Origin: a bacterium
Lineage (GTDB): Bacteria; Bacillota; Clostridia; Lachnospirales; Lachnospiraceae
Length of the DNA stretch: 44,275 nucleotides
Assembly: GCA_023664305.1 (NCBI GenBank)
Contig: JAMPFT010000024.1
Span: forward strand, 1 to 44,275
Direction of reading: 5' to 3'
Each line of letters starts with the position of its first letter. Position 1 is the first letter of the stretch. A program made the position numbers and the translations under genes. Shown piece by piece: positions 16,823-38,051 of the stretch. Under the pieces are notes generated by a model. The model made no database searches. It saw nothing but the letters and a program-made list of their open reading frames with translations, and was not told the DNA's origin.

Positions 16823-16955
16823 GCCCCAGGCGACACGGCCCTCTGTTCAGACACGCTTGCGCTTGGGGCCGGACGTAGCGGTGCTAAGCTCGAAAGGACC
16901 TCGCTAAGCGCCGACGTCCGGCACAGTCTTCGCAGAGGGTCGCGCCGTCTGGGGC
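16823..16955 (+). ncRNA. Large hairpin element, copy 1 (candidate structured RNA or mobile palindrome)
   Basis: Nested stems: GCCCCAG/CTGGGGC (16823-16829 with 16949-16955), ACGGC/GCCGT, CCCTCTG/CAGAGGG (16839-16845 with 16933-16939), AGAC/GTCT, GCCGGACGT/ACGTCCGGC, and CGGTGC/GCGCCG, closing on an apical core TAAGCTCGAAAGGACCTCGC. Copy 4 at 37.9 kb keeps the core but replaces the stems with different complementary bases. Confidence 0.55.
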
Positions 16956-17073
16956 TGTTTTGCGGCAGGGCGGATGGGGTGGGCCGGGTGCGTGGGGTGC
17001 GGTATTTGACGAGGGGAGGTCCGGTTGGCAGGGGATGCCCGGTTGGCGAGGGAGGTTCGGTTGGCAAGGGGAC

Positions 17074-17206
17074 GCCCCAGGCGACACGGCCCTCTGTTCA
17101 GACACGCTTGCGCTTGGGGCCGGACGTAGCGGTGCTAAGCTCGAAAGGACCTCGCTAAGCGCCGACGTCCGGCACAGTCTTCGCAGAGGGTCGCGCCGTC
17201 TGGGGC
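17074..17206 (+). ncRNA. Large hairpin element, copy 2
   Basis: This is the same as copy 1, 251 bp downstream, with the same nested stems and apical core and no difference that I can see. Confidence 0.55.
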
Positions 17207-17324
17207 TGTTTTGCGGCAGGGCGGATGGGGTGGGCCGGGTGCGTGGGGTGCGGTATTTGACGAGGGGAGGTCCGGTTGGCAGGGGATGCCCGGTTGGCGA
17301 GGGAGGTTCGGTTGGCAAGGGGAC

Positions 17325-17457
17325 GCCCCAGGCGACACGGCCCTCTGTTCAGACACGCTTGCGCTTGGGGCCGGACGTAGCGGTGCTAAGCTCGAAAGGA
17401 CCTCGCTAAGCACCGACGTCCGGCACAGTCTTCGCAGAGGGTCGTGCCGTCTGGGGC
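17325..17457 (+). ncRNA. Large hairpin element, copy 3
   Basis: It matches copies 1 and 2 except for small changes. One is informative: the inner stem reads CGGTGC/GCACCG, fully Watson-Crick, where copies 1 and 2 have CGGTGC/GCGCCG with a G-U pair. Confidence 0.55.
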
Positions 17458-17596
17458 TGTTTTGCGGCAGGGGGTGGCCCGAAGGCGTGGGGATGCGGCA
17501 ATTGGCGAGGGAGGTCCGGTTGGCGAGGGATGCATCAGGCGGCAAGGGGACGCCCCAGTCGGCGATGGGGGATATCCTGCGGCGGAAGGAGTAGGG

Positions 17597-19375: not shown

Positions 19376-19423
19376 GAAAAAGACGCTGAGTAACGAGGCT
19401 GCGGACTGATTTGGAAACCCCTA

Positions 19424-19452: not shown

Positions 19453-19458
19453 ATCAAC

Positions 19459-20018: not shown

Positions 20019-23000
20019 ATGGATTCTTCTATCCTGAAAAATGTTGAGAAATTCATAAAAGCGGAGAGCAGGCGCAGATATTGGACGATAGCGGTAGCCG
20101 GTCTGGGCAGCGTGGTGGTTATTATAACGGCTCTTTTGCTGATGGCTCCTGCCCGTGCGATGGTAGGCGAGACCTTCTGCGGGATGGAAGAGCATACGCA
20201 TTCGGAGGAGTGTATCGGGCTTGTTTTGACTTGCGGATATCCGGCAGACGAAGAGTTGGGCGTAATCGACGGGGAAAACCCGGACGGGACTGACGCGGAA
20301 TTTGTGGAAAGTGATTCGGCAGAAGGCGGCGTCGGAGCTGTTGAAGGCGGCTCGGAGGAGGCAGATGCGAATCCGTCGGAGAGCGGTTCCCAGGCTTCAG
20401 ATGTAAGTCCGGCGGAAAGCGGTTCCCAGGAAATCAATGCGGGAGCGCCCGAAGGTCATGTTCACACGGCGGACTGTTACGCGGAGGAGCGCAGGCTGAT
20501 CTGCACCGAGGAAGCGGCGGAAGGTCATGTTCATACGGACGAATGCTATACCGTTCAGACGGCGCAGGCGTTGGTCTGTGAAAAGGCGGAGACGGAAGGC
20601 CACAGCCACACGGACAGCTGTTATGAGTTTACCGTGACGCAGACGTTAATCTGCAGCGATACCTCTGAAGAGCATGAGCATACGGCGGACTGTTATGCGG
20701 AGGAAAGCGTAAGGGGCGGTTCCCCGGTCTGCGGACAGGAGGAAGCAGAGCCTCATATTCACGGCGAAGGCTGTTATGAGACGGTCGAGGAGAGAATCTT
20801 AAGCTGCGGAAAAGAAGAGGGAGAAAGCGAAGGCGCTCATGTTCACGGGGACGAGTGCTATGAGACAGTGCAGACGCTGATCTGCGGTATGGAAGAGACG
20901 GCGGCGCCCGAGCAGGGCACAGAGGGAATGCCTGCGGCATCCGAGCAGGGAGCAGAAGGAACGCCTGCGGCACCCGAGCAGGGAGCAGAAGGAATGCCTG
21001 CGGCATCCGAGCAGGGAACAGAAGGAACACCCGCAGCGCCTGAGCAGGAAACAGAAGAAGCGCCTGCGGCATCCGAGCAGGGGACGGAAGAAGCATCCGA
21101 GGCCGGACAGGGAACAGAGAATCCCGAGGCGGAGGAAGTCCACGTTCACACGGAAGAGTGTTACGGAGAAGGCCCGGCGTGCGGATTGGAAGAGCATATT
21201 CATGATGACACCTGTTATGAAAAGCCGGAGCTTTACTGTGCGGAATATCTGCACTCTCATGAAGAAGAGTGTTATGACGAAGAAGGAAACGTTGTGTGCG
21301 GTTATGTGGCCTTTGCGGTACATGTGCATGACGAGAAGGTCTGCTACGGTTCCAAGGGAACCCTGATCTGCCCCCTGCCCGAGATAGCGGCGCATGTTCA
21401 CACCGAGGAATGCTGGCAGACGCCGGAAGACGGCGGAGAGCCCGTGTTGAGCTGCGGAAGGCAGGAGATAGAACTGCATACGCATACGGCGGAATGTTAC
21501 GACGAAGAGGAAAATCTGATTTGCGGAAAGTTGGAGATCGTGGAGCATGTTCACTCTGCAGAATGTCTTGTTAAGCCGGAGAAGCCGGTTGAAATCGTAG
21601 AAGTAACCTTTGAAGGCGGGAATTTCATCATCACCGCTTCTTACGAATCGGACGCCCTTCCGGAGGACGCGGAGCTGTTCGCGGCACAGATCACGGAGGA
21701 GAGCGACGCGGAGCATTACGCAAGGCGTCAGGCACAGTATGAGGAGGCAGTCGGCGAGGAAGGCGCTCCGATGCGCGCCCTGCTGAAGATCGGCTTCTAT
21801 GTGGACGGAGAAGAGGTAGAGCCGGAGAAGCCGGTAAGCATTACGGTACAGATGCTGGACGAAAACGGCATGGAGGACGGCGAGCCCGTCACCGTGATAC
21901 ACTTCCACTCCGAGGATGAAACGGAGACCGTCAAGACGCTGGACGGCGGCGTTGCGGAAAACGGAAGCGCGACGTTTGAGATGGATCAGTTCTCGGAGAT
22001 CGCGATCGGGTACGGCCCGAAGGTGATTCCGGATAAGGTGGTTTCTGTCGATGAGACCATAGTATATGAAGATGAAGAGTTCCGTATTAACTTCCGCCTG
22101 CAGGGCGATGTGACCATTCCTGTGGAACTGCTTTCGGAGGCAGAGAAGGCAGCGGTAGCTAAAGCGGTGAGCGGTTCTGAAAAGGTTGACGGGACAGCGC
22201 AGCAGGAGAGCGATCCGGAGAAGGACATAGCAGAGTCCGGCACGGAGACATCGGCAGAGAGCAATTCCGGGGAAGTGTCAGCAGAGTCCGACACGGAGAC
22301 ACAGGAAGAGAGCAATTCCGGGGAAGTGTCAGCAGAGTCCGACACGGAGACACAGCCTGAGAGTGACTCCGAGGGAACAGCGGCAGAATCCGATGCGGAG
22401 ACGCAGCCGGAAAGTACCGGAGAAAATCTGAATCTGTCCGTGGGTGAGACGGAGGTTGTCGGGAGCTATTGGGAGGACGGCATATTTTACGTTTCCATAA
22501 AGGCGGAAGGACTGGAAGAGAATCTGGTGTTTATGCTGAAAGCGCTGGATGAGAATACGAATGAATACGCTTCCGTGAAGGCTTACGACGAGGAATCGGG
22601 AGACAACGGAGAAAAGTTAGTGCTTCGTGTGTGGTCTTATTCCCTGAACTATCGGGAGACGGAGCTGGATCTGTCAGCCTGCAGTGTGGCGGCGGAGATT
22701 ACGCCTACGCAGAAGCTGGTGAGTACCGTGGCGGAAGCGGTCAGCGCCGAAGCACCGGAAAAGACGGATGATGCGCCTGAGGATGTTGAGGGTCAAAGCG
22801 ATCTTGCATTTGTGGTCATGGAGATCGTAGGCGAGGGAAGCGAAATCCAGGTTGGCGCGAGAAGCGCGGCATTTTTGGGGGAAGGAGAGACGGATCAACT
22901 GTCCCAGTCTTTAGCGCTTGAACTGAACGCCAACATCATGGTGGCCAGCATATCGGAGGAACGGGCCAACCCTAAATTTAAGGTAGAGTATTATGCGAAC

Positions 23001-25265
23001 CTTGCGATTATGAACACGAAGGGGACGAACGCTCTTCCGCTGATTGATACCAGCGGGAAGCAGCTTCCGGTAAATAAAAAGGGAACCGGCACTTCACCTA
23101 ATGGCAACGATATCAAGAACATTTATGTGAATGACGCGGGGAAAGTATTAACTACCCTGACTGAGACGCAGGTGTACGAGACGGAGGTGTACGAGTACAT
23201 CAAAGCGCCTACCGTCAACTACATGAATGAGTTGGTTGAAAACTCGCATTATGAGTTGAAGAAAATAAAAATCCTGACATGTACCAATACTTCTCAGACA
23301 CATGTGCATGACTCCGAGAAATGTTACACGGTTTGCGGCGAGGTGATCTGTGGGAAAAAGAACCACGATCACTCGGAAGCCTGCAATAACGGCCAGGACT
23401 GTAAAAAGGAAGAGCACGCTCATAACAGCGATTGCTTCACAATACATTTTGCAAACAGATATCCGCGGGATACGAACGGGAATTTCATCCTTCAGAATGC
23501 AGCAACGGGAACAGTTGCCACGGATAAGGACGGCAAGCGGTGTGAAAAGACAGATTACGGCTATAAGATCGGAGAAGGGACGAATGCCCGCGAATACGTC
23601 GTCCTTACGGATGAGACGGTGCTTCGGTTTGTATATGAAGTGACAGAGGATACGCCGGACTTTGAGGTTGCCTTTTATGACTATGATATCACCAACGGTT
23701 ATCTCTATACCGGAGTAAACAGTAATAGTGCTGTAACAGGTGATGCTAAAGTAACAAGTACACAGACAAATAGAGATAAGAACAAGAACGTTAGTTATGG
23801 CTATACAAAGCAGAGCGGGATCAATAGCGCTGGGAATTATACCGGTTCCGGTACAAAGTTAGCGTTCGGCAACGTAAACACCGGTACTACGATGGGAGAA
23901 AACCTCTGGGACGGAAATCTGCTGAATAAATTTAACGGTACGCAGTCAGGGCATCCGTCTGTTACAGGTTCTTACAAGGGCTGTACTTTTGGACTGGTTA
24001 CTAAATTAGTGGATGGAAAAATCCAGTATGTATCCACAGTCAGCGCTCCCAAATTGTTCAATGAGGGCGAAGCAACGGGAAAAACAGCTTATGACAACGG
24101 GCAATATACCCTGAGTTTCAAACGCGCTGGCGACACCTATACTCTTGCGGCTGTAAAAAAGGGTACGGCGGTTGCGGTACCTGATTTGGATTCCTTCGGA
24201 CATCCCAGTCCGTACAGCGGGAAAGTATGGGACAGCATTTGGACTAACGATTTTTGGCCGATGGATACCGCAGAGTCTTATGGAACAAACGGTCATGATA
24301 TAAAATTCGGCAGTTATGACCTCAGAAATAACCGGGCATATGCCGGCAGTACGACGAAAGGGGAGCCTGGCAGCACAAGCGGCAGTAAGAAAGCTTTCCC
24401 TTACAGTGACGACGGCAAGGATCACAACAGCTACTTTGGTATGACCTATAAGGTTTCGTTCGAACTGTCAAAGGATTATGTAGGCCCCTTGGAGTATTAT
24501 TTCTTCGGCGACGACGATATGTGGGTGTTCCTGGACGATCAGCTTGTCTGTGACATCGGCGGGGTTCATTCCTCGGTTGGAGAATATGTGAACCTGTGGG
24601 ATTACCTGGAGAAAGGCAGCGAGGGAACGCACACACTGACCTTCTTCTATACGGAACGCGGTGCTTCCGGTTCCACCTGTTGGATGCAGTTTACTTTACC
24701 GTCGGTTTCCTCTCTGACGCCGGAGCAGATCACCGGCCGGGCAACCAACTCTTTAAAGGTTGGCAAGAGCGTAATCGGAACAGACGCTCCTACGGGTCTG
24801 GATTACGAGTTCTCGATTAAGTTCACGAAGGGAGACGAGAATCTGCCGGATGACTACAGATATGTGAAATATGCGAAGGACGGAAGCGTTATAGGCGATG
24901 ACCTGATCATATGGGACGGCGGAACATTCCTGTTAGGGGACGGCGAGTACATTGAAGTGAAGTATCTGCCCGTCGGAACCACCTATTCCATTGCGGAAAC
25001 AGGCAGGATATTTAAAGATGGAAATCTGTATACAGATAACCGCAAGTATGAAATCATCGTTGACGGAACAAACGCAGAGCAGGGTGTTACGAGCGGCGAT
25101 ATCGCAAGTACCGATACCACGGTTAATTATATCAACGATTACGGGTACGCACTTCCCGAGACCGGCGGCACCGGAACAAGGTTATATACAATAGCAGGCG
25201 CTATACTTGCAACGCTTGGCGCAGGCTTACTGTATAGAAAAAAATTCAGAGAAAGGAGGGTGTGA
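20019..25265 (+). CDS. Giant LPETG surface adhesin with His/Cys repeats and a fibro-slime domain
   Basis: The 1748-aa protein has a long signal/anchor region (hydrophobic near 23-46, then APARAM). Residues about 57-520 hold 14 copies of a short His-x-His...CysTyr...Cys motif (for example GHVHTADCY then LICT), and three more near 1090-1145. A Pro/Glu/Gln repeat (APEQGTEG, ASEQGAEG) interrupts them near 300-360, and an Ser/Glu/Asp repeat lies near 720-800. A fibro-slime/PA14-like domain follows near 1480-1560 (YYFFGDDDMWVFLDD). The C-terminus has an SpaA-like domain, LPETG at 1712-1716, a hydrophobic helix and RKKFRERR, a textbook sortase signal. It is probably the pilus tip adhesin. TTAAGGAGG precedes the ATG. 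Confidence 0.9.
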   Translation: MDSSILKNVEKFIKAESRRRYWTIAVAGLGSVVVIITALLLMAPARAMVGETFCGMEEHTHSEECIGLVLTCGYPADEELGVIDGENPDGTDAEFVESDSAEGGVGAVEGGSEEADANPSESGSQASDVSPAESGSQEINAGAPEGHVHTADCYAEERRLICTEEAAEGHVHTDECYTVQTAQALVCEKAETEGHSHTDSCYEFTVTQTLICSDTSEEHEHTADCYAEESVRGGSPVCGQEEAEPHIHGEGCYETVEERILSCGKEEGESEGAHVHGDECYETVQTLICGMEETAAPEQGTEGMPAASEQGAEGTPAAPEQGAEGMPAASEQGTEGTPAAPEQETEEAPAASEQGTEEASEAGQGTENPEAEEVHVHTEECYGEGPACGLEEHIHDDTCYEKPELYCAEYLHSHEEECYDEEGNVVCGYVAFAVHVHDEKVCYGSKGTLICPLPEIAAHVHTEECWQTPEDGGEPVLSCGRQEIELHTHTAECYDEEENLICGKLEIVEHVHSAECLVKPEKPVEIVEVTFEGGNFIITASYESDALPEDAELFAAQITEESDAEHYARRQAQYEEAVGEEGAPMRALLKIGFYVDGEEVEPEKPVSITVQMLDENGMEDGEPVTVIHFHSEDETETVKTLDGGVAENGSATFEMDQFSEIAIGYGPKVIPDKVVSVDETIVYEDEEFRINFRLQGDVTIPVELLSEAEKAAVAKAVSGSEKVDGTAQQESDPEKDIAESGTETSAESNSGEVSAESDTETQEESNSGEVSAESDTETQPESDSEGTAAESDAETQPESTGENLNLSVGETEVVGSYWEDGIFYVSIKAEGLEENLVFMLKALDENTNEYASVKAYDEESGDNGEKLVLRVWSYSLNYRETELDLSACSVAAEITPTQKLVSTVAEAVSAEAPEKTDDAPEDVEGQSDLAFVVMEIVGEGSEIQVGARSAAFLGEGETDQLSQSLALELNANIMVASISEERANPKFKVEYYANLAIMNTKGTNALPLIDTSGKQLPVNKKGTGTSPNGNDIKNIYVNDAGKVLTTLTETQVYETEVYEYIKAPTVNYMNELVENSHYELKKIKILTCTNTSQTHVHDSEKCYTVCGEVICGKKNHDHSEACNNGQDCKKEEHAHNSDCFTIHFANRYPRDTNGNFILQNAATGTVATDKDGKRCEKTDYGYKIGEGTNAREYVVLTDETVLRFVYEVTEDTPDFEVAFYDYDITNGYLYTGVNSNSAVTGDAKVTSTQTNRDKNKNVSYGYTKQSGINSAGNYTGSGTKLAFGNVNTGTTMGENLWDGNLLNKFNGTQSGHPSVTGSYKGCTFGLVTKLVDGKIQYVSTVSAPKLFNEGEATGKTAYDNGQYTLSFKRAGDTYTLAAVKKGTAVAVPDLDSFGHPSPYSGKVWDSIWTNDFWPMDTAESYGTNGHDIKFGSYDLRNNRAYAGSTTKGEPGSTSGSKKAFPYSDDGKDHNSYFGMTYKVSFELSKDYVGPLEYYFFGDDDMWVFLDDQLVCDIGGVHSSVGEYVNLWDYLEKGSEGTHTLTFFYTERGASGSTCWMQFTLPSVSSLTPEQITGRATNSLKVGKSVIGTDAPTGLDYEFSIKFTKGDENLPDDYRYVKYAKDGSVIGDDLIIWDGGTFLLGDGEYIEVKYLPVGTTYSIAETGRIFKDGNLYTDNRKYEIIVDGTNAEQGVTSGDIASTDTTVNYINDYGYALPETGGTGTRLYTIAGAILATLGAGLLYRKKFRERRV

Positions 25266-25284
25266 GGAGGTAACAATATCCTCC
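25258..25284 (+). promoter_or_regulatory. Small hairpin after the adhesin gene
   Basis: GGAGG just after the stop pairs with CCTCC about 12 bases on. There is no T-run. It may mark an RNA processing point between the adhesin and the major pilin. Confidence 0.3.
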
Positions 25285-25371
25285 CGAATCTGAAATAGCA
25301 TCAGAGATGTGGACTCTAAACCACGGAGCTTCAAAAACGAATCAAAATGAAAAGGAAGGGAGATTAAAGTG

Positions 25372-27462
25372 ATGAAGCGTATGAAGAAAATTGTCAGCAT
25401 GATGCTGGCGGTGATTATGGTTCTTGGCATGAGCCTGACGGCATTTGCTGCCGAGACAACAACGACAACGCCGAAGGGCAGCGGTGATTTTACAATTACC
25501 ATAAATAAAGTCGCGCAGGATAACCATAAGTTTGCGGCTTACCAGATTTTTAAGGGCGACCTTCTGGAGCAGAACGGGGAGAAAGTTCTCTCTAATATTG
25601 AATGGGGCGACAGTGTAAATAAGGAAAACCTGACTGCATTGATTACCGCGTTAAAGGGAATCACAATCGGAGAAGGCACAAGTGCAACGAAGCCTCTTGA
25701 TGGCTTGGAGGTTGGAAGCGATACAGCATCCCAGTCCACCGCGGCTGAAGTGGCAGAAATGCTTCAGGGTGCAAGTGCTGATCTGGCGATTGCGTTTGCG
25801 GATGTGATGAGCACGAAGAATGCAGACGGATTCCTTTACCTGACGACTGTTTCCGGCACTTCCGGCACCCCGGACGAGGTAGAAACTACTATCGGCAACG
25901 GAACAGACACGCCGACCACAGAGGTAACCTATACTTATAAAATCACGGGATTAAACGTAGGTTACTATCTGGTACAGGAACTTGACGCTACCGGCGGTCT
26001 GGTAGCAGGAGATGCTTACAGCAGAAATATGTTACAGGTGGTTTCGGATGTAGAGACGGCTGTAAAGACGGAAACCCCTACGATCGAAAAGAAGATTATC
26101 GCTGGCGAAGATGGAACAGACAGAGTAGACGCGAACAATACCGGTATCGGCAATGTTGTCGCTTACGAGCTTAAGGGAAATGTTCCCGACACGACCGGCT
26201 ATGACTATTACTTCTATGTGATCAGCGATACCTTGTCTGAGGGCTTAACCTTTAATGATGATGTTAAGGTAACGGTCGGCGGAACAGAAGTGACCGTGGG
26301 TACTGACTATTATCTGTATAAGGGTGAGGCTGGAACTACCTTTAAAGTTGCTTTTGCCAACATTATGAATTTTGCAAAAGACGCTGAGATCGTTGTAACC
26401 TATTCCGCTACGGTAAATGAGAATGCGGTGATCGGTTCCACAGGTAACCCCAATGAGGTTACATTGACCTATTCCAACAACCCGAACCACGATTATGCAG
26501 GGGATCAGAACAGTGATAAGCCCGGTCTGCCGGATTCCACAAAGACTGTTCCGACGGGCGAGACCCCGAAGGACATCACGATCACCTATGTGGCGCAGAT
26601 CGATGTTACAAAGACCTTTAGCAACGTCACAGCAGGAACCAGCTTTGATGAGGCGCACCGTGCTACCTTCACTCTGACCGGTACTTCTACCAAGACGGTG
26701 CTGAAAGGCGAGACCGTATATGTAGAAGCTGGAGAAGGTGAAACTGCAACACATTATCTTTTGAAAAACGGCACCTACACAAAGGATGAACCTGTAGTAA
26801 ATGAGTATATGAAAGAAGCAGAAGTCGGTGCAGCTGCAGGCTGGGTTATCGCAGAAGAAGGCTATGCCGGAGACGACAGCAAGACCGTTGGCGAAAACGT
26901 TTACCGTCCTTATAAAGAGGGGGATAGCGGTCAGATATATGTCCTGGTAGAATCCAATGCTGATCTTTATGAAAGCGAAAAAATATACAAAGAAACCAGC
27001 GAGACTACAACTCATACAACGACATACACTGTAGAGATGACAGGAATCACCGACGAAAACGGTAAGCTCACTTTCCCGGGCCTGGGAGCAGGTACTTATA
27101 CGCTCGAAGAGACCGGTGTTCCGGCAGGATACAACAAGGCAGAGAATGTAACGATTGTTATTGAATGTGCAGTGCCGGAAACGGTTGCAGATAAGACTCA
27201 GACAGCAACTTGGACGGTAGGAGCAGATTCTACGAATGGAATTGCGTTGCTGGAGAAGACGGTTGTTAATGGTGATCAAACAGTCACTATAGCTTCTGCA
27301 AACAGCGGTGTTTACGGTGCAACGATCCTGAACAACAGAGGTTCCCTCCTTCCTTCCACCGGTGGTATCGGTACTACGATCTTCTATGTGATCGGCAGCA
27401 TTCTGGTACTTGGAGCGGTTGTTCTGCTGGTAGCGAAGAAGCGCATGAGCGGAGAAAAATAA
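25372..27462 (+). CDS. LPXTG-anchored major pilin (SpaH/EbpB-type, isopeptide-forming)
   Basis: The 696-aa precursor has a signal peptide (MKRMKKIVSMMLAVIMVLG, cleavage likely after AFA near residue 26); an N-terminal domain with ITINKVAQDNHKFAAYQIF; a TPTIEKKI segment near 235 that is a likely pilin-motif lysine for polymerisation; a middle domain with VKVTVGGTEVTVGTDYYLYK; and a C-terminal Cna-B-type domain with the E-box YTLEETGVPAGY near 580. It ends LPSTG (about 660-664), a hydrophobic helix and KKRMSGEK. Intramolecular isopeptide bonds and class C sortase polymerisation are expected from the family. The start may be GTG 25369 or ATG 25372; AAGGAAGGGAG serves both. It precedes the class C sortase. 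Confidence 0.93.
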   Translation: MKRMKKIVSMMLAVIMVLGMSLTAFAAETTTTTPKGSGDFTITINKVAQDNHKFAAYQIFKGDLLEQNGEKVLSNIEWGDSVNKENLTALITALKGITIGEGTSATKPLDGLEVGSDTASQSTAAEVAEMLQGASADLAIAFADVMSTKNADGFLYLTTVSGTSGTPDEVETTIGNGTDTPTTEVTYTYKITGLNVGYYLVQELDATGGLVAGDAYSRNMLQVVSDVETAVKTETPTIEKKIIAGEDGTDRVDANNTGIGNVVAYELKGNVPDTTGYDYYFYVISDTLSEGLTFNDDVKVTVGGTEVTVGTDYYLYKGEAGTTFKVAFANIMNFAKDAEIVVTYSATVNENAVIGSTGNPNEVTLTYSNNPNHDYAGDQNSDKPGLPDSTKTVPTGETPKDITITYVAQIDVTKTFSNVTAGTSFDEAHRATFTLTGTSTKTVLKGETVYVEAGEGETATHYLLKNGTYTKDEPVVNEYMKEAEVGAAAGWVIAEEGYAGDDSKTVGENVYRPYKEGDSGQIYVLVESNADLYESEKIYKETSETTTHTTTYTVEMTGITDENGKLTFPGLGAGTYTLEETGVPAGYNKAENVTIVIECAVPETVADKTQTATWTVGADSTNGIALLEKTVVNGDQTVTIASANSGVYGATILNNRGSLLPSTGGIGTTIFYVIGSILVLGAVVLLVAKKRMSGEK

Positions 27463-27489
27463 GTATTTGAAAGAATGATAATTCTGTTG

Positions 27490-27516: not shown

Positions 27517-27541
27517 ATGACAGCAGTAAGGAGAGCCCTGC

Positions 27542-28360: not shown

Positions 28361-28374
28361 GGAGAGGATAGAAT

Positions 28375-29500: not shown

Positions 29501-29519
29501 GAAGGAGGAGGGATTGCCA

Positions 29520-30974
29520 ATGAAACGGAAATGGATACGGTTGCTTGCCCCCTTGGCGGTAGTGTTGAGCGTAGCGCTGGCCTTGCCGTTGATGAGCAGG
29601 GCGGTGGATCTGACGCAGACCTGTAAGCTGACGGTCAATCTTACAAGCAGTACGGATAAGGAATTGAGGGCGGATCTGGAAAGCGCCGGAATTATTATCG
29701 AGGTATATCAGATCGCCACGGCGGTTTCGGACACGGCAAGCGATACTTATCACTTTGAGGCTCTTGAGGCATATAGAAGTCTCGATCTGACGGATAAGGC
29801 GGAGAGCGACGGCTGGCAGGCATGGCAGGCGCAGGCACAGGAAGCTGCGAAGATTGCCCTGGCGGACAATCCGGACAGTAATACCGTATACAATGGCTTG
29901 TGCGGAACTGTGACCATGGATACGAGCGATCCGACAAGGCCGGGCAATGTGATTACTTCCCTGGAGCCCGGACTGTATCTGCTGATTCCTCACGGGAAGA
30001 ACCTTACGCCGGAGCAGTACAAGATATTTCTGGATAAAGATACGGAATTTTATCAGAACGAGCAGGATGAAAACGATAAGATTGTGAAGGGCGCGGGGAC
30101 GCTTGCAACGGTCGCTTATTCCGCGGAGTATCAGTACACCTTCCTGCCGGAGCTGGTAGCCGTTCCGAACAAGGGGGCGGCGGTAGCTCATCCGTCCACC
30201 TCGGCGGCGGACAGAGGTCCCTGGCAGTATGATTTTGAGATTTATCTGAAGCCGGCGCAGACGCTGCGTTACGGATCTCTGGAGATCGTAAAGGATCTTC
30301 TCACCTTTGAGAGCTGGGCCGGAGAAAACCCGGAGCCGGCGACCTTCGTCTTCTCGATAGAGGCGGTGCGTGGAACGGATCCGGCCGGGAATCCGATTAA
30401 CGTTTACAGCGATGTGGTAGCGATGTACTTTGACGCGGCGGGTACGCAGAGAGTCACGATTAAAGATAAGATTCCGGCGGGATCAACGGTCACCGTGACG
30501 GAGGTTTACAGCGGCGCAAGCTACGAGGTGAAGACAGGGCCTGTCTGGGCGGGCGATAAGAATGTCATCAGCGCCACGGAGCTGATCAGCGTGAAGTTTA
30601 CAAACGATTATGACAGGCGGCAGACCGGAGGGCACGGAATCACGAATCATTTCCGTTATGAACCGGATGGAGCAGGGCTTTCCTGGAATCCGACGCAGTA
30701 CTTCGGCGGGGCGGCAAATCCGGATGAAACGACAACCCCGGGCGGGACGGATAATCCGGACGGAACAATTCCGGGCGGGACGGATAATTCGGACGAGACA
30801 ACTCCGAGCGAGTCGGTAAGCCCGGACGAGACAACTCCGAGCGAGTCGGCAAACCCGGACGAGACAACTCCGAGTGAGACAACAAATTCCGATGAAACAA
30901 CTTCGAGCGAGCCGGTAAACTCTGACGAAACAACGAATCCCGACGGAATGACGAACCCCGATGAAACACGGTAG
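29520..30974 (+). CDS. Secreted pilin-like protein with Thr/Ser/Pro-rich tail and no anchor
   Basis: The 484-aa protein has a signal peptide (MKRKWIRLLAPLAVVLS, cleavage near SRA-VD). Residues about 35-210 resemble a pilin N-terminal domain (CKLTVNLTSSTDKELRADLE; LEPGLYLLIPHGKNLTPE). A second domain (about 230-375) ends with LISVKFTNDY, as in DUF5979/Cna-B-like modules. A low-complexity tail repeats PDETTPSES-type units and stops at NPDETR. There is no LPXTG, hydrophobic helix or basic end, so it would be released or held by partners. The ATG at 29520 follows GGAGGG by seven bases. The position after lepB suggests a minor or shaft-base pilin. Confidence 0.85.
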   Translation: MKRKWIRLLAPLAVVLSVALALPLMSRAVDLTQTCKLTVNLTSSTDKELRADLESAGIIIEVYQIATAVSDTASDTYHFEALEAYRSLDLTDKAESDGWQAWQAQAQEAAKIALADNPDSNTVYNGLCGTVTMDTSDPTRPGNVITSLEPGLYLLIPHGKNLTPEQYKIFLDKDTEFYQNEQDENDKIVKGAGTLATVAYSAEYQYTFLPELVAVPNKGAAVAHPSTSAADRGPWQYDFEIYLKPAQTLRYGSLEIVKDLLTFESWAGENPEPATFVFSIEAVRGTDPAGNPINVYSDVVAMYFDAAGTQRVTIKDKIPAGSTVTVTEVYSGASYEVKTGPVWAGDKNVISATELISVKFTNDYDRRQTGGHGITNHFRYEPDGAGLSWNPTQYFGGAANPDETTTPGGTDNPDGTIPGGTDNSDETTPSESVSPDETTPSESANPDETTPSETTNSDETTSSEPVNSDETTNPDGMTNPDETR

Positions 30975-30998
30975 TCTGACGAATAAGGAGGGCAGCAC

Positions 30999-31580
30999 AT
31001 GAAAAGGAAGACAAAAATTGGATATTCACTCCTTACGGTTCTTGCCGTGGCATCGGTTCTGACAGCGGGGATAGACAGCACGGACGCTTATTTTACCACC
31101 TACGCAGAGGCTGCCGGAGGTTACAGGATAAGTCTGGGCGATCACACGGATCTGGAGGAGACGATCAGTAAGGGCGGCGTAAAGCATGTTCAGATTACGA
31201 ACACGGAGGGAGCGCCTGTCTATGTCCGGGTCAAAGCCTTCAGCGGCAGCGCATATCCTTTAACGTATGTCAGCGGGACGGATGAAAGTGGCGCGCCCTG
31301 CTGGACGGAAGGAACGGACGGATACTGGTATTATAAAGATATCTTGAGGGAAAAGGAAGAAAGCGAAGAGCTTAGGATCGAAATTGCATTTCCGCAGGAA
31401 CCGGAAGAGGGCGACGAGTTTAACGTAATCGTCATCTACGAAAGCACGCCGGTTCGGTATCACTATGAGGGCGATGCTTATGTTCCCTACGCGGATTGGG
31501 ATGAGAAGCTTGACGCGGTGATCGTCAACGGCAAGGTGACAGAGCCTGCGAAGACTCCCGAAACAGGAGGTGAAGACTGA
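30999..31580 (+). CDS. SipW-dependent, TasA/CalY-like matrix protein with an incomplete sorting signal
   Basis: The 193-aa protein opens with MKRKTKIGYSLLTVLAVASV, then AGIDSTDAYFTTYAEA, the AYF-type cleavage region of SipW substrates (TasA, camelysin). The mature part is beta-rich (GGYRISLGDHTDLEE, VYVRVKAFSG). The C-terminus reads EPAKTPETGGED and then stops: the start of a cell-wall sorting signal without the hydrophobic helix and basic tail. It may thus be a fibre subunit secreted by the SipW-type peptidase encoded downstream. AAGGAGGGC precedes the ATG. Its stop overlaps the next start (TGATG). Confidence 0.82.
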   Translation: MKRKTKIGYSLLTVLAVASVLTAGIDSTDAYFTTYAEAAGGYRISLGDHTDLEETISKGGVKHVQITNTEGAPVYVRVKAFSGSAYPLTYVSGTDESGAPCWTEGTDGYWYYKDILREKEESEELRIEIAFPQEPEEGDEFNVIVIYESTPVRYHYEGDAYVPYADWDEKLDAVIVNGKVTEPAKTPETGGED

Positions 31581-32695
31581 TGGCAAAGACAAATCAAAAG
31601 GCCGGTAAGACAAAGACCTCCCGGTTTGCGGGAATCAGAAAAAAGCTTGCTTCTCCGATCGCAACGGTAGCGTTGTTTGCGGTGGCGGCGGGACTGCTCT
31701 TATTCAGTACCGTCGGCGGCGCGAGAGCAGCGCTGATCTACGCATCCGATAACTACAGCGCGGAAATACGGATGTCTTACATCGGTGTGACGCTTCTGGA
31801 GAAGGGTCAGGGAGCGGAAAAAAGCCAAGTGGTTGCCAGCCGCGATTACAGTAAGGTGGCAGACGGACAGTGGCACGGCGATGAGGAGGGTGAGCTGTTG
31901 GGCTGGATCGGCCAGGAAAATTTCCGGCTGGGAGAACGCTATGAGGAAGTGCTGAGCGTGCAGAACACCGGTCAGATCGACGAGTATGTGCGCGTCACCA
32001 TTTATAAGTATTGGCTGGATGCAGCGGGAAAGAAGACGCAGGAGCTGTCCCCCGATCTGATCGAGCTACAGCTGGAAAACGTGGGAAACGGTCCGGAGGA
32101 TAAGTGGATAGAGGACAAGGAAGCCGAGACGGCGGAGAGAACGGTTCTTTACTATAAGGAGATTTTGGAGGCAGGCGCAGTGTCTGACGCCTTCAGCAGC
32201 AGCCTGACGGTGAACGCGGATGTGGCGTCCAAGGTCATCGAGGAGAGGACGGAAAAGGTTGTAGGTGATACGACCTACACGACGGTGACAAGCACTTACG
32301 CTTACGACGGATATCGGTTTGTCGTAAAGGCACAGGTGGACGCGGTACAGACCCACAGCGCGGAGGATGCGATCTGGAGCGCGTGGGGACGCAGAGTAAC
32401 CGTAGACAGCGAGGACAAAACGCTGAGCCTGAAGACGGCGGACGATATGCAGGCGGTGGACGCGGACCGGTTTGTTGAGACGGAAGAGTCCGGCGAACAG
32501 GGAACCGGAACCGACGAGGACGACACAGGTAATCAGGGAACCGGAACCGACGAGGGTAACACAGGTAATCAGGGAACCGGAACCGGCGAAGGTAACACGG
32601 GCGAACAGGGAACGGAAACCGGAGAAGGAAATACCGACGGACAGGGAACCGACACAGCCGGAGACAATCCGGATCAACAGGGGCAGGAGGGATAA
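31580..32695 (+). CDS. Second TasA-like/SipW-dependent surface protein with acidic repeat tail
   Basis: The 371-aa protein begins with a basic head (MAKTNQKAGKTKTSRFAGI), a hydrophobic helix (about 25-45) and ARAALIYASDNYSAEI, comparable to SipW-type signal ends. The mature domain (about 50-285) has VLSVQNTGQIDEYVRVTIYK, a motif common in TasA-like fibre proteins. From about 300 to the end it is a Gly/Thr/Glu tail with about 14-residue repeats (NQGTGTDEGNTG). It has no LPXTG or C-terminal helix. It overlaps the previous gene's stop codon, so translation is coupled. Probably an ancillary fibre subunit. Confidence 0.8.
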   Translation: MAKTNQKAGKTKTSRFAGIRKKLASPIATVALFAVAAGLLLFSTVGGARAALIYASDNYSAEIRMSYIGVTLLEKGQGAEKSQVVASRDYSKVADGQWHGDEEGELLGWIGQENFRLGERYEEVLSVQNTGQIDEYVRVTIYKYWLDAAGKKTQELSPDLIELQLENVGNGPEDKWIEDKEAETAERTVLYYKEILEAGAVSDAFSSSLTVNADVASKVIEERTEKVVGDTTYTTVTSTYAYDGYRFVVKAQVDAVQTHSAEDAIWSAWGRRVTVDSEDKTLSLKTADDMQAVDADRFVETEESGEQGTGTDEDDTGNQGTGTDEGNTGNQGTGTGEGNTGEQGTETGEGNTDGQGTDTAGDNPDQQGQEG

Positions 32696-32698
32696 GGC

Positions 32699-33496
32699 AT
32701 GATGAAAAAGTGGATGACATTATTCCTGAGTGCGTTTGTCCTGATGTGCGGCGCGGTTCTGCCGGTTCACGCGGATGATTTCCTCGCGGAAGAGCTCTCT
32801 CAGAATAAAGAAAAGTGGCAGGTTACCTTTACCGCGGGAAACGAGATGGCGTCGAATTTCTCCAGGGCCGATATCAACGACGTGGTATCGGAGCTGCAGC
32901 CCGGCGACAGCGTCACCTTTACGGTGGCTCTGAAAAACGAGAATCCCGAGACGGCAGACTGGTATATGTCGAACAGGGTGCTTTCCTCTCTGGAGAAGAG
33001 CGCGGAGGAGAATTATCAGATCGCAGGCGGCGCGTACACTTATGTGCTGACTTATACAAATTCCGCGGGCGTACCCAACGTTCTTTTCAGCAATGAGACC
33101 CTGGGCGGAGACAGTGCGACGCAGCCGGGAGTAGGCCTGGAGGCAGTGTCCTCCTCCCTGCAGAACTTTTTTTTCCTGGATACCTTTGCACAGGGACAGT
33201 CCGGAACGATAACGCTGCGCGTCAGCCTGGAGGGCGAGACGCAGGGCAACGCTTATCAGAATACATTGGCGAATCTGGAGATGAATTTCGCGGTGGAGCT
33301 GGGAGCGGCGCCCAGAAGAGAGGATCAGACGGTAACGGAGGAGCCCACGATCAGAAGGACTACCGTCGTAAAGACGGGTGACGAGACGAATCTGACGCCC
33401 TTTTATATCGCTATGGCGGTCAGCGGGATTTTGATTCTGCTTCTGGCGTTTTACAGCATGAAGCAGGGGAAAAAGAAAAAGGAGGAGAGATCATGA
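32699..33496 (+). CDS. Surface protein with a non-canonical KTGD-type C-terminal anchor
   Basis: The 265-aa protein has a signal peptide (WMTLFLSAFVLMCGAVLPVHA, cleavage before DDF), an Ig-like body with LQPGDSVTFTVALKNENPET and VPNVLFSNETLGGD, then a linker VVKTGDETNLTP, a hydrophobic helix (about 236-255) and a basic tail GKKKKEERS. The layout is that of a sortase substrate, but the site is KTGDE and not LPXTG. This fits either direct membrane anchoring or recognition by the downstream class B sortase. It starts four bases after the previous stop and overlaps the next start. Confidence 0.82.
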   Translation: MMKKWMTLFLSAFVLMCGAVLPVHADDFLAEELSQNKEKWQVTFTAGNEMASNFSRADINDVVSELQPGDSVTFTVALKNENPETADWYMSNRVLSSLEKSAEENYQIAGGAYTYVLTYTNSAGVPNVLFSNETLGGDSATQPGVGLEAVSSSLQNFFFLDTFAQGQSGTITLRVSLEGETQGNAYQNTLANLEMNFAVELGAAPRREDQTVTEEPTIRRTTVVKTGDETNLTPFYIAMAVSGILILLLAFYSMKQGKKKKEERS

Positions 33497-34602
33497 AGAA
33501 GATAAGAAGATTTTTCACGGCTCTATTCATCCTTACGATGCTGTTTTCCCTGCATATCACTTCCCTGGCGGGCAATGTGACGGGGGGCTATACCTATACG
33601 GTGCGGCTTTTCTCCGGACAGCAGGGAACCTTTGAGTCGGTTGACGTAACGATTGTGTTGGACGCCGATCAGTCGGTCAGACGTTATACGTTCCAGAACT
33701 GCGATACGATTGTCGTCACGGGGCTGATGTACAACGATCAGATTATCTGGGAATGTGATACGCAGAACATGGAGCTGACGGAATCCGATAACAGGTATTA
33801 TGTGAAGGGAATCCGCGCGAGCGGCAAGGATAACGATACGATTCAGTCGTCTGACGGCAAAAAGCGCGCGGGAAGCAATTCCAGCAGCGCCTCCAAGGCG
33901 ATCACGGTGACCGGGGATGCGGATTATGTGGTGGGTTACGGCCTGTTGGTTGACCCGGTGGAATATACCGTAAGGTATATAGACGCCGCTTCCCGCAACG
34001 AGCTTGCGGAATCGAGAACCTTTTACGGCAATATAGGAGATAAGCCGGTGGTTGCCTATCGGTATATTGACGGCTGGCAGCCGCAGGCATACAATATTAC
34101 CGGAAAGCTTGTCGAGGATCCGTCCAAAAATATTTTTACCTTTGAATATACTCCGGTGCCGAGCGGCGGCGTTATCTATAACACCATCGTGATTCCCGGT
34201 ACGGTGATCGATCTCGGTACGGAAGTGGTCGATTTAGGCGGAGGCGGCGGTGGCGGTGGCGCTGCCGTGGGCGGAGGCGACGGTGGCGGCGGAGACGCCG
34301 GAGCGGAAGCCGGGCCTGTGGACGATCAGAACCCGGAAACGGATATTCAGGAAGAAACGCCCCCGTTGGCTGAGCAGCCGGATGATCTTTTGGATCTGGA
34401 TGCGGAAAGCACCCCTTTGCTGGATGCGATTAAGGACGGTGTGGATACCGTGACTAACGTGATCGGTGACGGAGTCCTGCTTTTTGCGGGCATCCCCACG
34501 GCGGGGAAGATCAGTCTGCTGATCGCAGTGGTGGCAGTAGTTGTCGCGGGAATCGCTACGGTGATACATTTTAATAAGAGGAAAAAAGAAAATGAGGAAT
34601 GA
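33493..34602 (+). CDS. Cell-surface protein with MucBP-like domain, polyglycine linker and C-terminal helix
   Basis: The 369-aa protein has a signal peptide (about 1-27), an N-terminal beta domain with YTYTVRLFSGQQGTFESVDV, a middle domain (about 155-220) VEYTVRYIDAASRNELAES resembling MucBP repeats, then a linker with eight consecutive Gly and more Gly/Asp, and an acidic segment. The C-terminus has IPTAGK, a hydrophobic helix (about 338-360) and KRKKENEE. IPTAG is only loosely like a sorting site. It may bridge the fibre to the cell surface. The start overlaps the previous gene by 4 bases; the stop overlaps sipW by 11 bases. Confidence 0.8.
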   Translation: MKKIRRFFTALFILTMLFSLHITSLAGNVTGGYTYTVRLFSGQQGTFESVDVTIVLDADQSVRRYTFQNCDTIVVTGLMYNDQIIWECDTQNMELTESDNRYYVKGIRASGKDNDTIQSSDGKKRAGSNSSSASKAITVTGDADYVVGYGLLVDPVEYTVRYIDAASRNELAESRTFYGNIGDKPVVAYRYIDGWQPQAYNITGKLVEDPSKNIFTFEYTPVPSGGVIYNTIVIPGTVIDLGTEVVDLGGGGGGGGAAVGGGDGGGGDAGAEAGPVDDQNPETDIQEETPPLAEQPDDLLDLDAESTPLLDAIKDGVDTVTNVIGDGVLLFAGIPTAGKISLLIAVVAVVVAGIATVIHFNKRKKENEE

Positions 34603-35143
34603 GAAGGATTCCGGCAAAGGTTCTGCAAATAAGGGTGGGAAGCTGATTCCCGCCCTTTGCAACATATTGGGTATTTTGATATTGCTGTCCGTTATCGCGT
34701 TCTGTCTGCCGATGACGGTTCCCAAGCTGATGGGATACGAAATCTATCATGTGGTCAGCGGCAGCATGGAGCCCGAGATTCCCGTGGGAAGCGTGATCTA
34801 TGTGGCACAGGCTGTCCCGGAGGAGGTCGGGGCGGAGGATGTGATCGCTTTTTACAGCGGCGGCAGCGTCATCACGCACAGGGTGGTGGTGAACCGTATC
34901 GTAGAGGGCGAGTTCGTCACCAAGGGAGACGCCAATGCGTCTGAAGATCTGAATACGGTGCCGTATGCGAATCTGGTGGGCCGGGTGGAATATCATTTCC
35001 CGGTGATTGGGCAGTGGATGACGGTCTACACCAGTATGCTGGGGAAGATTTATATTATCTGCTTTGCCGCCTGCGGGGCCATGCTGAATATGCTGGCGGG
35101 GCGTCTGCGGGACAGAAACAGAGAGGACGCGAAGGAGGCGTAA
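34592..35143 (+). CDS. sipW: SipW-type signal peptidase I (Ser/His)
   Basis: The 183-aa membrane protein has a hydrophobic segment (about 20-42), the Ser58 block HVVSGSMEPEIPVGS and the His96 block VITHRVV, followed by FVTKGDANASEDLNTV. The His in place of the usual Lys defines the ER/archaeal-like SipW subclass, which in Bacillus matures TasA and YqxM/TapA. A second hydrophobic helix lies near 150-170. It overlaps the previous gene by 11 bases. Its presence next to TasA-like proteins indicates they are its substrates. The ribosome binding site (AGAGGAAAAAAG) is modest. Confidence 0.92.
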   Translation: MRNEKDSGKGSANKGGKLIPALCNILGILILLSVIAFCLPMTVPKLMGYEIYHVVSGSMEPEIPVGSVIYVAQAVPEEVGAEDVIAFYSGGSVITHRVVVNRIVEGEFVTKGDANASEDLNTVPYANLVGRVEYHFPVIGQWMTVYTSMLGKIYIICFAACGAMLNMLAGRLRDRNREDAKEA

Positions 35144-35180
35144 GCGTTTCGCGGGGCAGAAAGCAGGGAGGACGTTCTGT

Positions 35181-36008
35181 GTGAAAAAGAAGATCATCAT
35201 TCTTTTGATTATCGTATTGGTTCTGGAGTTTGTGGGCTGCGCCTGGTATATTCTTGCAAAGCGGATGGAGTATCGGGAAGAAAGCCGCACCTATGAGCTG
35301 GCGGCGGAAAACTATGTGACAAAAACAGAGCCGGAGGAAACGGACGAAGGCGGAGCGGACGGAAGTCTGGGAGCCGGGGACGGAAACAGAAATCGAGAGA
35401 CGGGCAGCGTGCCCATAAAGGTGGATTTTGAGGGGCTGTCGAAGGTATGCGGCGATATCGTCGGCTGGATTTACTGCGAGGACACGGTGATCAGTTATCC
35501 CGTGGTACACGGAGAGGACAACGACTATTATCTGACGCACAGCTTTGACGGGGCCGTACAGAAATCCGGCACGGTTTTCGTGGATGCAAACAACACCAAA
35601 GGCTTTTCGGATTCCAACACGATTATCTACGGGCACTATATCAAGGACGGTTCTATGTTTGCGTCGCTGAAAAACTGGTCGAATCAGGAGTTTTATGAGG
35701 AGCATTCCGTCATGTGGCTGCTGACGCCGGAGCAGGATTACAAAATACTGCTGTTCAGCGGATATACTACGCCTGCGCTGTCGGATTCCTATCTCATTTT
35801 CATCGGTCAGGGAGAGGAACTGGACGAATATGTGAAAAACTGCGCGACCAAGTCGAATTTCCGGTCGCTGATTGATCCGCTGGATCCGGAGATCGCCGGG
35901 AAGTACGTTATGCTTTCCACATGCGCCTATAGCTATACGGATGCCAGATATGTGCTGCACGGCGTGCTGGTGCCCGTAGAGCCTGAGGATTCCATCCGGG
36001 CGGAGTAA
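35181..36008 (+). CDS. Class B sortase
   Basis: The 275-aa membrane protein has an N-terminal helix (5-25), an acidic linker and a class B sortase core (about 90-268): WIYCEDTVISYPVVHGEDN, then NTIIYGHYI (His152), KNWSNQEFY, VMLSTCAYSYTDARYVLHG with Cys248 and Arg256. Class B enzymes usually attach NP(Q/K)TN-type proteins, but here the nearby C-termini are KTGD or IPTAG, so the specificity is unknown. GTG is used as start with GGGAGG upstream. It is the last gene of the surface array and is followed by a bidirectional terminator. Confidence 0.93.
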   Translation: MKKKIIILLIIVLVLEFVGCAWYILAKRMEYREESRTYELAAENYVTKTEPEETDEGGADGSLGAGDGNRNRETGSVPIKVDFEGLSKVCGDIVGWIYCEDTVISYPVVHGEDNDYYLTHSFDGAVQKSGTVFVDANNTKGFSDSNTIIYGHYIKDGSMFASLKNWSNQEFYEEHSVMWLLTPEQDYKILLFSGYTTPALSDSYLIFIGQGEELDEYVKNCATKSNFRSLIDPLDPEIAGKYVMLSTCAYSYTDARYVLHGVLVPVEPEDSIRAE

Positions 36009-36033
36009 AGAGAATGAAAGAGAGGCCCGAACC

Positions 36034-36102
36034 GGGGAAGAATGCGGAGCATTCTTCTAAGCACCACTTCGTGGCGCTTTGTGCCACGAAGTGGTGCTTT
36101 TT
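36034..36102. terminator. Double-hairpin element, copy C: bidirectional terminator
   Basis: GAAGAATGC (36037-36045) pairs with GCATTCTTC (36049-36057) around GGA. A perfect 17-bp stem (36059-36075 with 36083-36099) follows around GCTTTGT, then TTTTT. It sits between the class B sortase and rqcH and touches the rqcH stop codon. This is the longest of the three copies. Confidence 0.88.
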
Positions 36103-37870
36103 ACTCCGACACCAGCCGGATCCCCTCGATATTGCTGTCGATGGCCATGGAATAATTCGTATAGTAGACCACAAAGCCGGGCTTTGCACCGGCCGGTTTC
36201 TTTACATGCTTTTTCTGGATATAATCGATTTCAACCTTTTCCTGCTGGCGGCCTTTGGAGTAATAGGCGGCCAGCCGCGCCGCCTCCTCGAAGGTGCGGT
36301 CAGGCAGCTCCTGTGCGTTGCCCAGACGGACGATGACGTGGGAGCCGGGAAGCTTTTTGGCGTGGAACCACCAGTCGTTTCCGGAGGCGGTCTTAAAGGT
36401 CAGTTCATCGTTCTGATAATTGTTTTTCCCCACATAAATATCAAAACCGTCGCTGCTGATATAGTGGAAGGGGCGGCTGGAGGTCTTTTGCTTTTTCGCG
36501 CCGCCCTTTCTGCGGATGTAGCCGCTTTCGATCAGCTCTTCCCGGATTTCCGTCAGGTCTTCCTCGTAGAGAGCGATGTCTAAAGCTGCGGAGACGGATT
36601 CCAGATGATCGATCTCGGCCCGAACCTCCTCCGTCAGCCGGGAAAGAGCCTCGTAGGTGCGTTTCAGCTTGTTGTACCGCTCAAAATATCTCTTTGCGTT
36701 CTCTGTAGCAGTGAGGGTCGGGTCAAGCGGGATCGTGACTGCTTCGCCGGTGTAGTAGTTTACGGCCTCCAGAGACTGCGCGCCGGGGGCGGCGCTGTAG
36801 CCGTAGGTGTTTAAAAGCTCGCCGTAGACGCGGTAGGTATCCCGCTTTTGCGTGTCTTTGATCTGCTGCATCTGCAGATCGTATTTTTTGACGTTCCGCT
36901 CCAGCGCAAGCTGTACGATGTGCCGCAGATCGGAAGACTTTTGACGGATCCGGATGACGGCGTTACGTTTTGCGTAGTAATCCTCCAAAAGAGAGGACAT
37001 GGATTCGTAGGGGACGGTATAGCTGCCCGAGGAGGAAGGCTCCCGGGAGGGGTATCCGTAGAGTGTGAGGGGCAGGGCGCAAAATTCCACGGGCTTTTGG
37101 AAGGAATAGGCGATGTTGGGGGTAAAGCGTTCTTCCCTGACGGCGGACATCATCTCAGAAAAAGCCGCGTAAAGCCGCTGCCAGTCCGCTTCCTCCAAAG
37201 CGGCGGCGGGGCGGTCTGCGTCGATCCCCGCCTCGTAGCAAAGCTCCTGGGCGAGGATGGGAGAGATGCCGGTGAAGCTGCCGTAAACTGCCTTAAAAAG
37301 GGGCTGGGGCTTTGCGGCCAGCGCCTGACGGAAAACGGTGTCGTCCGTACACAGAGGATTTAGCTTATCCTGAGTCTTCGCCACGAAATAAGGCTTTCCG
37401 GGCAGTACCTCCCGCAGGGAGCTGACGGCGGCGGAGACATGCTTGATGCTGTCGATGATCACATTGTCCTCGCCGCAGAAGATGATATTGCTGTGCTTTC
37501 CCATGATCTCGACAATCAGCGTCTTGCGGCGCAGATCGCCCATCTCGTCCAGATGCTCGATCTCAATGCGGATAATGCGCTCCAGTCCGGGCTGCCTGAT
37601 ATCCGTGATCCTGCCGTTCTGCAGATGCTTGCGCAGAAGCATACAAAAGCCGGGGGCAGTCAGGGGGCTGGGCTTGTTTTTTTCCGTCAGGTAGATTAAC
37701 GGCAGGGACGCGTCCGCAGAAAGCAGGAGACGCTTCTGCCCCCCGGGCTGCCGAACGGTTAAAATCAGCTCGTCCTCTTCCGGCTGGGCAATCTTGTAAA
37801 GCCGTCCGCCGATTAACTCTCTTTTCAATTCGCTTACCACACTTGCTATCGTCACACCGTCAAAAGCCAT
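36101..37870 (-). CDS. rqcH: NFACT family ribosome rescue factor RqcH
   Basis: The 589-aa protein matches RqcH (Rqc2/NEMF homologue), which binds stalled 50S subunits and directs addition of C-terminal alanine tails. The NFACT-N domain starts MAFDGVTIASVVSELKREL and has the conserved VEIMGKHSNIIF near residue 120; a long coiled-coil middle runs about 330-440; the C-terminal NFACT-R domain has DIYVGKNNYQNDELTF and WWFHAKKLPGSHVIVR. Length and order are typical. The start at 37868-37870 is backed by AAGGAGGGG; 35 codons upstream are from the hairpin region. It is convergent with the class B sortase gene. Confidence 0.94.
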   Translation of the reverse strand: MAFDGVTIASVVSELKRELIGGRLYKIAQPEEDELILTVRQPGGQKRLLLSADASLPLIYLTEKNKPSPLTAPGFCMLLRKHLQNGRITDIRQPGLERIIRIEIEHLDEMGDLRRKTLIVEIMGKHSNIIFCGEDNVIIDSIKHVSAAVSSLREVLPGKPYFVAKTQDKLNPLCTDDTVFRQALAAKPQPLFKAVYGSFTGISPILAQELCYEAGIDADRPAAALEEADWQRLYAAFSEMMSAVREERFTPNIAYSFQKPVEFCALPLTLYGYPSREPSSSGSYTVPYESMSSLLEDYYAKRNAVIRIRQKSSDLRHIVQLALERNVKKYDLQMQQIKDTQKRDTYRVYGELLNTYGYSAAPGAQSLEAVNYYTGEAVTIPLDPTLTATENAKRYFERYNKLKRTYEALSRLTEEVRAEIDHLESVSAALDIALYEEDLTEIREELIESGYIRRKGGAKKQKTSSRPFHYISSDGFDIYVGKNNYQNDELTFKTASGNDWWFHAKKLPGSHVIVRLGNAQELPDRTFEEAARLAAYYSKGRQQEKVEIDYIQKKHVKKPAGAKPGFVVYYTNYSMAIDSNIEGIRLVSE

Positions 37871-37926
37871 GATTATACCCCTCCTTACTGTGAAACACAT
37901 CATGCAGACTGCAGAAGACCAACTTT

Positions 37927-38051
37927 GGGCAGGCTTAATGTTTCTGCGGACACGTTTGCACTCGGGTCGGCACATAGCGGACGCTAAGCTCGAAAAGACC
38001 TCGCTAAGCGCCGATGTGCCTTTACGGTCCGCAGAAACCTTAAGCCTGCTC
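37927..38051 (+). ncRNA. Large hairpin element, copy 4 (diverged stems, conserved core)
   Basis: The outer stem GGGCAGGCTTAA pairs with TTAAGCCTGCTC allowing one G-U pair. After one mismatch GTTTCTGCGGAC (37940-37951) pairs perfectly with GTCCGCAGAAAC (38027-38038). Inside are GGCACAT/ATGTGCC and CGG-A-CGC/GCGCCG around the core TAAGCTCGAAAAGACCTCGC. The core is nearly identical to copies 1-3, while every outer stem differs in sequence but still pairs. Confidence 0.6.

Follow-up and report, generated by a model that had tools for sequence, protein, structure and literature searches.

Among dispersed bacterial palindromes, the GTAG and CGTC repetitive extragenic palindromes (REPs) are 20–40 bp long and carry a tetranucleotide tag at one end, and those of the CGTC type have been reported without a dedicated transposase (PMC3733652). 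A family of larger hairpins is described here, starting from four copies in a 44,275-nucleotide stretch of DNA from a Lachnospiraceae bacterium (contig JAMPFT010000024.1, assembly GCA_023664305.1; the whole stretch is hereafter the window). Like REPs, these hairpins are dispersed intergenic palindromes of high copy number that also occur as inverted pairs, and the GACG at their 5′ end reads CGTC on the other strand; however, at 125–190 bp or more they exceed the REP size range, and they differ in their conserved inner structure with fixed mismatches and in their copy-specific, mirrored arms. In the main text of PMC3733652, no word starts with “Clostridi”, “Firmicutes” or “Lachno”.

Other described systems overlap in part. 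With bacterial miniature inverted-repeat transposable elements (MITEs), the hairpins share small size, lack of coding sequence, inverted-repeat ends, empty sites in relatives and, in one instance, a 10-bp flanking direct repeat, but their inverted repeats vary between copies, no terminal repeat is constant across the family, and no parent transposon was found among the features looked at, PF01797 and the neighbouring genes. Unlike REPs moved by REP-associated tyrosine transposases (RAYTs) and IS200/IS605 elements, the family also occurs in element-rich genomes where no Y1 transposase was found, and, unlike IS200/IS605, it had no replication-strand bias in the single genome analysed for it (G314; genomes and loci are given as G and L numbers). 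Fungal mitochondrial double-hairpin elements and integron attC sites are likewise dispersed hairpins defined by structure. An attC site acts as folded single-stranded DNA; its base is conserved and its apex varies, whereas the present family conserves the apex and is variable at the base. Template switching at quasipalindromes is known to make and repair perfect stems, an arm being rewritten from its partner with multi-base compensatory change like that seen here (PMC8794818, PMC8604942); as these reports set it out, it is a type of mutation at ordinary repeats, whereas here it would be a regular property of a whole family of high copy number.

Distribution and anatomy of the hairpin family

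The four hairpins of the window proved to be a small part of the whole: the observation made in the first-pass annotation is confirmed and is far larger than first stated, with further copies in many other genomes. In the window genome (G000), the 27-nt core was found at 55 places with ≤3 mismatches and the reversed pattern at none, and a covariance model (R1), for which 43 copies were used, recovered 75 copies (E up to 0.001). The core occurred in 41 of 138 genomes of the genus, at 0 to 55 copies each, with no reversed match in the rows listed. Across the family, R1 matched 202 of 397 genomes or, counted by genus, 173 of 334, in a scan that scored as a rule 9 candidates per genome and so gives per-genome copy counts as lower bounds; in a class-wide draw it matched 7 of 291 genomes, all 7 from the window's own family. 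Other rich genomes were G404 with 112 copies, G505 with 38 (both at E up to 1e-6) and G314 with 38. Among the 80 stretches listed of the 116 from a genome-contig scan, titles were mostly “Lachnospiraceae bacterium” or Butyrivibrio, Roseburia, Hungatella and Acetatifactor, which we take to be Lachnospiraceae genera; a few were unspecific or did not fit, among them one that named Bacteroides. Carriage by phages or plasmids was considered and set aside: the exact core had no match in viral contigs (one core variant tried) and the fourth hairpin of the window had no blastn match among phages and plasmids (one copy tried), both searches being weaker than the model scans.

The first-pass annotation had known of no matching family, and for Rfam 15 this holds. 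At gathering score no hairpin was matched, the only match being a tRNA at the window's end, and a permissive search of two stretches (E up to 5) returned six matches, all to microRNA models far under gathering score. For this sequence family, abundant in a bacterial family that is important in gut and rumen, no published description was found among titles and abstract openings, and the core's letter stretches matched literature on unrelated subjects only. The family is REP- and MITE-like in spread yet fails defining tests of both, and is best read as a new family.

From the outside in, an alignment of 54 copies (A1) shows an outer stem (P1), a mini-hairpin on the 5′ side and an inner stem (P2), followed by an AG bulge and a further stem (P3); next come an A-A mismatch and a short stem, then a TC/TC internal loop and finally an AAANNAC loop. 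The inner part, comprising the mini-hairpin, P2, the core with its fixed mismatches and the loop, is conserved, whereas P1 differs in each copy and its arms, of ∼20 to 70 nt, are nearly private. In G343 and G713, two sister species of one genus, the apical stem pairs throughout, while its sequence varies by locus around the same loop. Two-sided change was seen at 29 of the 34 predicted pairs of A1, a value that none of 500 shuffles reached; 94.3% of cells were paired (75.2% in shuffles), and pairing fell to 34–44% when partners were slid by 1 to 3 columns. Pairing within the hairpins is real, and the covariation first read from four copies is strong with more sequences.

The family also takes other forms, namely minimal copies, tandem arrays, inverted pairs and a form with two hairpins whose cores lie 44–46 nt apart. 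Of 57 pairs of neighbours no more than 3 kb from each other, 8 were convergent inverted pairs and 2 divergent ones. A GACG/CTG asymmetry at the ends of many copies in the window genome and G404 is suggestive (by eye), and the terminal end TTACYGTTCAC is common to few copies only. After minimal copies at L050, L077 and L057 there is a second hairpin like GAAGAATC...GATTCTT, and at L302 (12900–13560) ATGGATGTACATTATAAAGGGAT is present twice, one instance leading into the element and the other not. At L153, a two-hairpin core form (931–955, − strand) immediately precedes an apparent 16S rRNA gene at its 5′ end and shares its orientation (by eye).

Mirrored arms and the level of pairing

The arms pair within each copy while differing between copies. 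Among 31 main-subfamily copies of the window genome, 53 of 558 arm cells were mispaired, or 36 of 522 in the 29 that remain when the two with the poorest pairing are left out; between two of these 29 copies, 38% of the positions paired in both differed. In G404, the 17 copies whose ends fitted the search pattern had 5′ arms of 34, 39, 66 or 71 nt that were matched in length on the 3′ side (r = 0.9999). The arms of these copies were 65% identical between copies; the within-copy identity of 0.926 counts 2 artificial gap columns per copy, and with such columns removed the comparison of the two arms within copies left 15 mismatches and 1 gap over a total of 657 positions. Stretches additional to the 34-nt form, of 5 nt in L411 and L414, 32 nt in L397 and 37 nt in L415, were mirrored in both arms, as was another, seen by eye, in L406 outside the 17. 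Between close copies (16 pairs with ≤8 changed positions, drawn from the 13 copies with 34-nt arms), 82 changes were mirrored versus 11 one-sided. Point mutation with selection would leave more one-sided intermediates and no mirrored insertion, whereas copying of arm from arm would give both observed patterns; mirrored insertions, together with mirrored changes that outnumber one-sided ones, point to one arm having been copied from a template.

The orientation of copies does not depend on that of the genes beside them. Among the 157 usable of 246 copies, those lying between two called open reading frames (ORFs), both neighbours were in sense in 51, both against in 49, convergent in 33 and divergent in 24 (p 0.92), and with one copy per locus the counts, in the same order, were 45, 39, 30 and 21 (p 0.59). 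Relative to replication in G314, called from local GC skew in 20 sampled windows of that one genome, 20 of 38 copies were leading, 14 lagging and 4 ambiguous (p 0.39). The apical stems of 17 G343 and G713 copies, which include orthologous pairs and were counted with ≤1 non-Watson-Crick pair admitted per stem, had 99 Watson-Crick pairs in 102, 0 G-T and 3 A-C. Arm mispairs in the 31 window-genome copies included 21 A-C and 13 G-T; as a control, 13 tRNAs found in the fetched loci had 18 G-T and 2 A-C in their acceptor stems. Departures from the commonest pair in A1 included 44 G-T versus 25 A-C (p 0.03), an excess in the direction expected of RNA on the + strand. Across A1, the apical stems and the window-genome arms, G-T is not consistently preferred over A-C, and pairing looks to be mainly at the DNA level, with the A1 excess standing on the other side.

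Sites in relatives and the origin of the family

The core was not found in any of 17 relatives scanned at the rqcH-yicC locus that holds the fourth hairpin of the window; the scan used the main core variant, and both flanks were readable in 17 of 30 fetched loci (136 genomes matched). In five relatives the gap held 519–713 bp of other sequence. At the same locus, CACTTTCGCTAAGCACCGGC in L105 (G042) resembles a deletion remnant between the two CGCT repeats of an element (by eye), and L107 (G135) carries a different palindromic insertion, AGAGCGTGTTTGAAAAAT...ATTTTTCAAACACGCTCT. A G177 copy of ∼190 bp corresponded to short gaps in 5 of 6 relatives (L309–L313) and to a different long stretch in L314. 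A flanking direct repeat, of 10 bp, was clear by eye at L061 only.

Neither an enzyme nor a function was found for the family. The Y1 transposase family PF01797 was not found in G000, despite its 75 copies, nor in G014 or G028, and G072 held only a fragment below cut-off; of nine further genomes it was present in G404, G505 and G314, which are among the richest, and not found in the other six, these absences coming mostly from draft genomes and so being incomplete themselves. A Y1 transposase as mobiliser was accordingly rejected, being present in three element-rich genomes and not found in several others. In L167, L186 and L152, the ORFs enclosed by inverted pairs, examined as possible genes travelling with the element, looked ordinary or spurious (by eye), and the clustered neighbour ORFs were common families such as ABC transporters (named by eye).

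The sister species G343 and G713 allowed copies to be compared in place. At least 11 of 15 compared G343 loci were common to both, the comparison covering 15 of 24 matches in each genome (those with loci) plus L456, which matches L457. At 10 common loci, the inner part differed at 13 of 749 positions (1.7%), the arms at 136 of 830 (16.4%) and the flanks at 616 of 7608 (8.1%; inner part versus flanks, Fisher p 4e-13); these rates leave out L484/L476, where 18 of 75 inner positions differ and with which the inner rate becomes 31 of 824. Judged by these substitution rates, the inner part is constrained in place. Seven of the loci retained their arms: 42 of 592 arm positions differed, and of the changes at positions that pair in G343, 19 were one-sided and none mirrored. 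The other three gave 7 mirrored and 24 one-sided changes from an alignment that is unreliable at such divergence. Mirroring looks like a discrete event between copies, not steady repair within a site.

The explanation towards which we lean is that the hairpins are a dispersed chromosomal DNA foldback family of Lachnospiraceae whose arms are mirrored during copying. The inner structure would be extruded as a cruciform or folded as a single strand and recognised by a putative enzyme or DNA-binding protein; as the element is copied, the polymerase may switch template from one arm to the other, one arm would be remade as its partner's mirror image, and a change or insertion in one arm would thus appear in both. 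Afterwards the copy would stay in place, its arms drifting by one-sided changes while selection holds the inner part. Only tentatively do we go further and suggest a propagating element that inherits its inner DNA structure and one arm, the second arm being rewritten from the first at each copying so that every copy would bear private, mirrored arms of its own, with selection keeping the element at its site afterwards. If such elements exist, they would give strong “RNA covariation” without any RNA. Two-sided compensatory change is standard evidence for RNA structure, and the family shows a possible origin for it at the DNA level and on a large scale, with discriminating tests built in: wobble counts, orientation, mirrored insertions, and between-copy versus between-species changes.

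Several observations weigh against the foldback explanation. The 16 close pairs reuse copies and are hence non-independent, and the G-T excess in A1 points the other way. No flanking direct repeat was seen by eye at L066 or at the G177 insertion. No mobilising enzyme was found, in a transposase search aimed at PF01797 and neighbouring genes and not at other classes such as DDE, and no element-specific gene recurs beside the copies when 796 ORFs within 1.5 kb are clustered. With at least 11 of 15 G343 loci common to G713, those copies must be old there, and constraint on the inner part in place is not predicted by a purely selfish repeat. At L460/461, L464/463 and L466/465 the arms are mostly dissimilar between the species, those at L460/461 and L464/463 still pairing well in both and that at L465 poorly, so that arms may be rewritten without a new site. 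Some minimal copies also lie in sense within operons (by eye: L033 1500, rpoA-rplQ; L057 1500, rplW-rplB), and some copies may have an RNA role.

That the copies are in general structured non-coding RNAs or RNA-level cis elements, transcribed, with an inner part that binds protein and arms that covary under selection for pairing, is nevertheless unlikely. It would account for the two-sided change that no shuffle matched, for the inner constraint at the G343/G713 loci, for the A1 excess and for sense copies in ribosomal-protein and rpoA operons and right before a 16S gene, but not for the lack of sense bias relative to neighbouring genes, the 0 G-T in 102 variable apical pairs, window-genome arms with A-C at least as frequent as G-T, or the lack of an Rfam family at threshold; mirrored insertions of 5–37 nt and an 82:11 ratio of mirrored changes are unexpected from independent compensation. 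The first-pass annotation had proposed either a structured RNA or a mobile element recognised by its hairpin. The many dispersed copies and the sites empty in relatives support a repeated element based on a hairpin, while the RNA half of that reading is weakened by the orientation, wobble and mirroring results. Less likely still are DNA sites that the host maintains, for instance for a protein of the nucleoid, of replication or of repair, with arms homogenised by quasipalindrome template switching and little or no transposition. Known template switching of this kind (PMC8794818, PMC8604942), the inner constraint, the loci common to sister species and the three with dissimilar arms are all consistent with such sites, but 19 one-sided versus 0 mirrored changes at the seven retained-arm loci imply that homogenisation is not continuous, core counts span 0 to 55 within one genus, and sites are empty in relatives. 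Improbable, finally, are classical REPs or bacterial interspersed mosaic elements (BIMEs) moved by a Y1 transposase (RAYT or IS200-type), or MITEs of a DDE transposase: the intergenic palindromes with their convergent inverted pairs, the end tag, the one flanking repeat and PF01797 in three of the richest genomes fit, whereas the genomes in which PF01797 was not found or was a fragment, the lack of strand bias in G314, the variable terminal arms and the element size do not.

Hairpins and neighbouring genes of the window

All four hairpins with a common core were located where the first-pass annotation had placed them (Table 1), and the stems and compensatory changes it quoted are correct, including the G-U pair of the third copy that becomes Watson-Crick (CGGTGC/GCGCCG to GCACCG); the A-C mispair turned into A-T lies in the outer stem of the same copy. 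Folded with RNA parameters, copies 1, 3 and 4, the three covered, gave z = -6.2, -7.9 and -8.6 on the + strand, with none of 200 shuffles as good, and copies 1 and 4 gave z = -6.0 and -8.8 on the - strand. On the 5′ side between arm and core, column pair 37–42 of the alignment was CG in 27 copies, TA in 26 and other in 1.

Table 1. Positions of the hairpins and their parts in the window
Feature	Position	Strand	Details
Hairpin copy 1	16823..16955	+	arms 16823-16845 and 16933-16955; core 16883-16909
Hairpin copy 2	17074..17206	+	core 17134-17160
Hairpin copy 3	17325..17457	+	core 17385-17411; T-G to T-A and A-C to A-T restore pairs
Hairpin copy 4	37927..38051	+	arms 37927-37951 and 38027-38051; core 37983-38009
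Tandem array	16799..17551	+	3 x 251-nt unit, one hairpin per unit (repeat search)
Conserved apical core	37983..38009	+	stem with A-A mismatch, TC/TC internal loop, loop AAANNAC
5′ side, arm to core	37950..37982	+	mini-hairpin GTTTGCAC, 5′ strand of inner stem P2, AG bulge

The units of the tandem array are 100, 98 and 75% identical to the first, and the array lies between a flippase-like gene and recJ, while copy 4 sits between the divergently oriented rqcH (−) and yicC (+); these genes were named by eye from translations. Between the two loci, positions 20019–36008 hold a sortase-dependent pilus/adhesin-like cluster with large LPXTG-type proteins, sortases and signal peptidases, likewise named by eye from translations.

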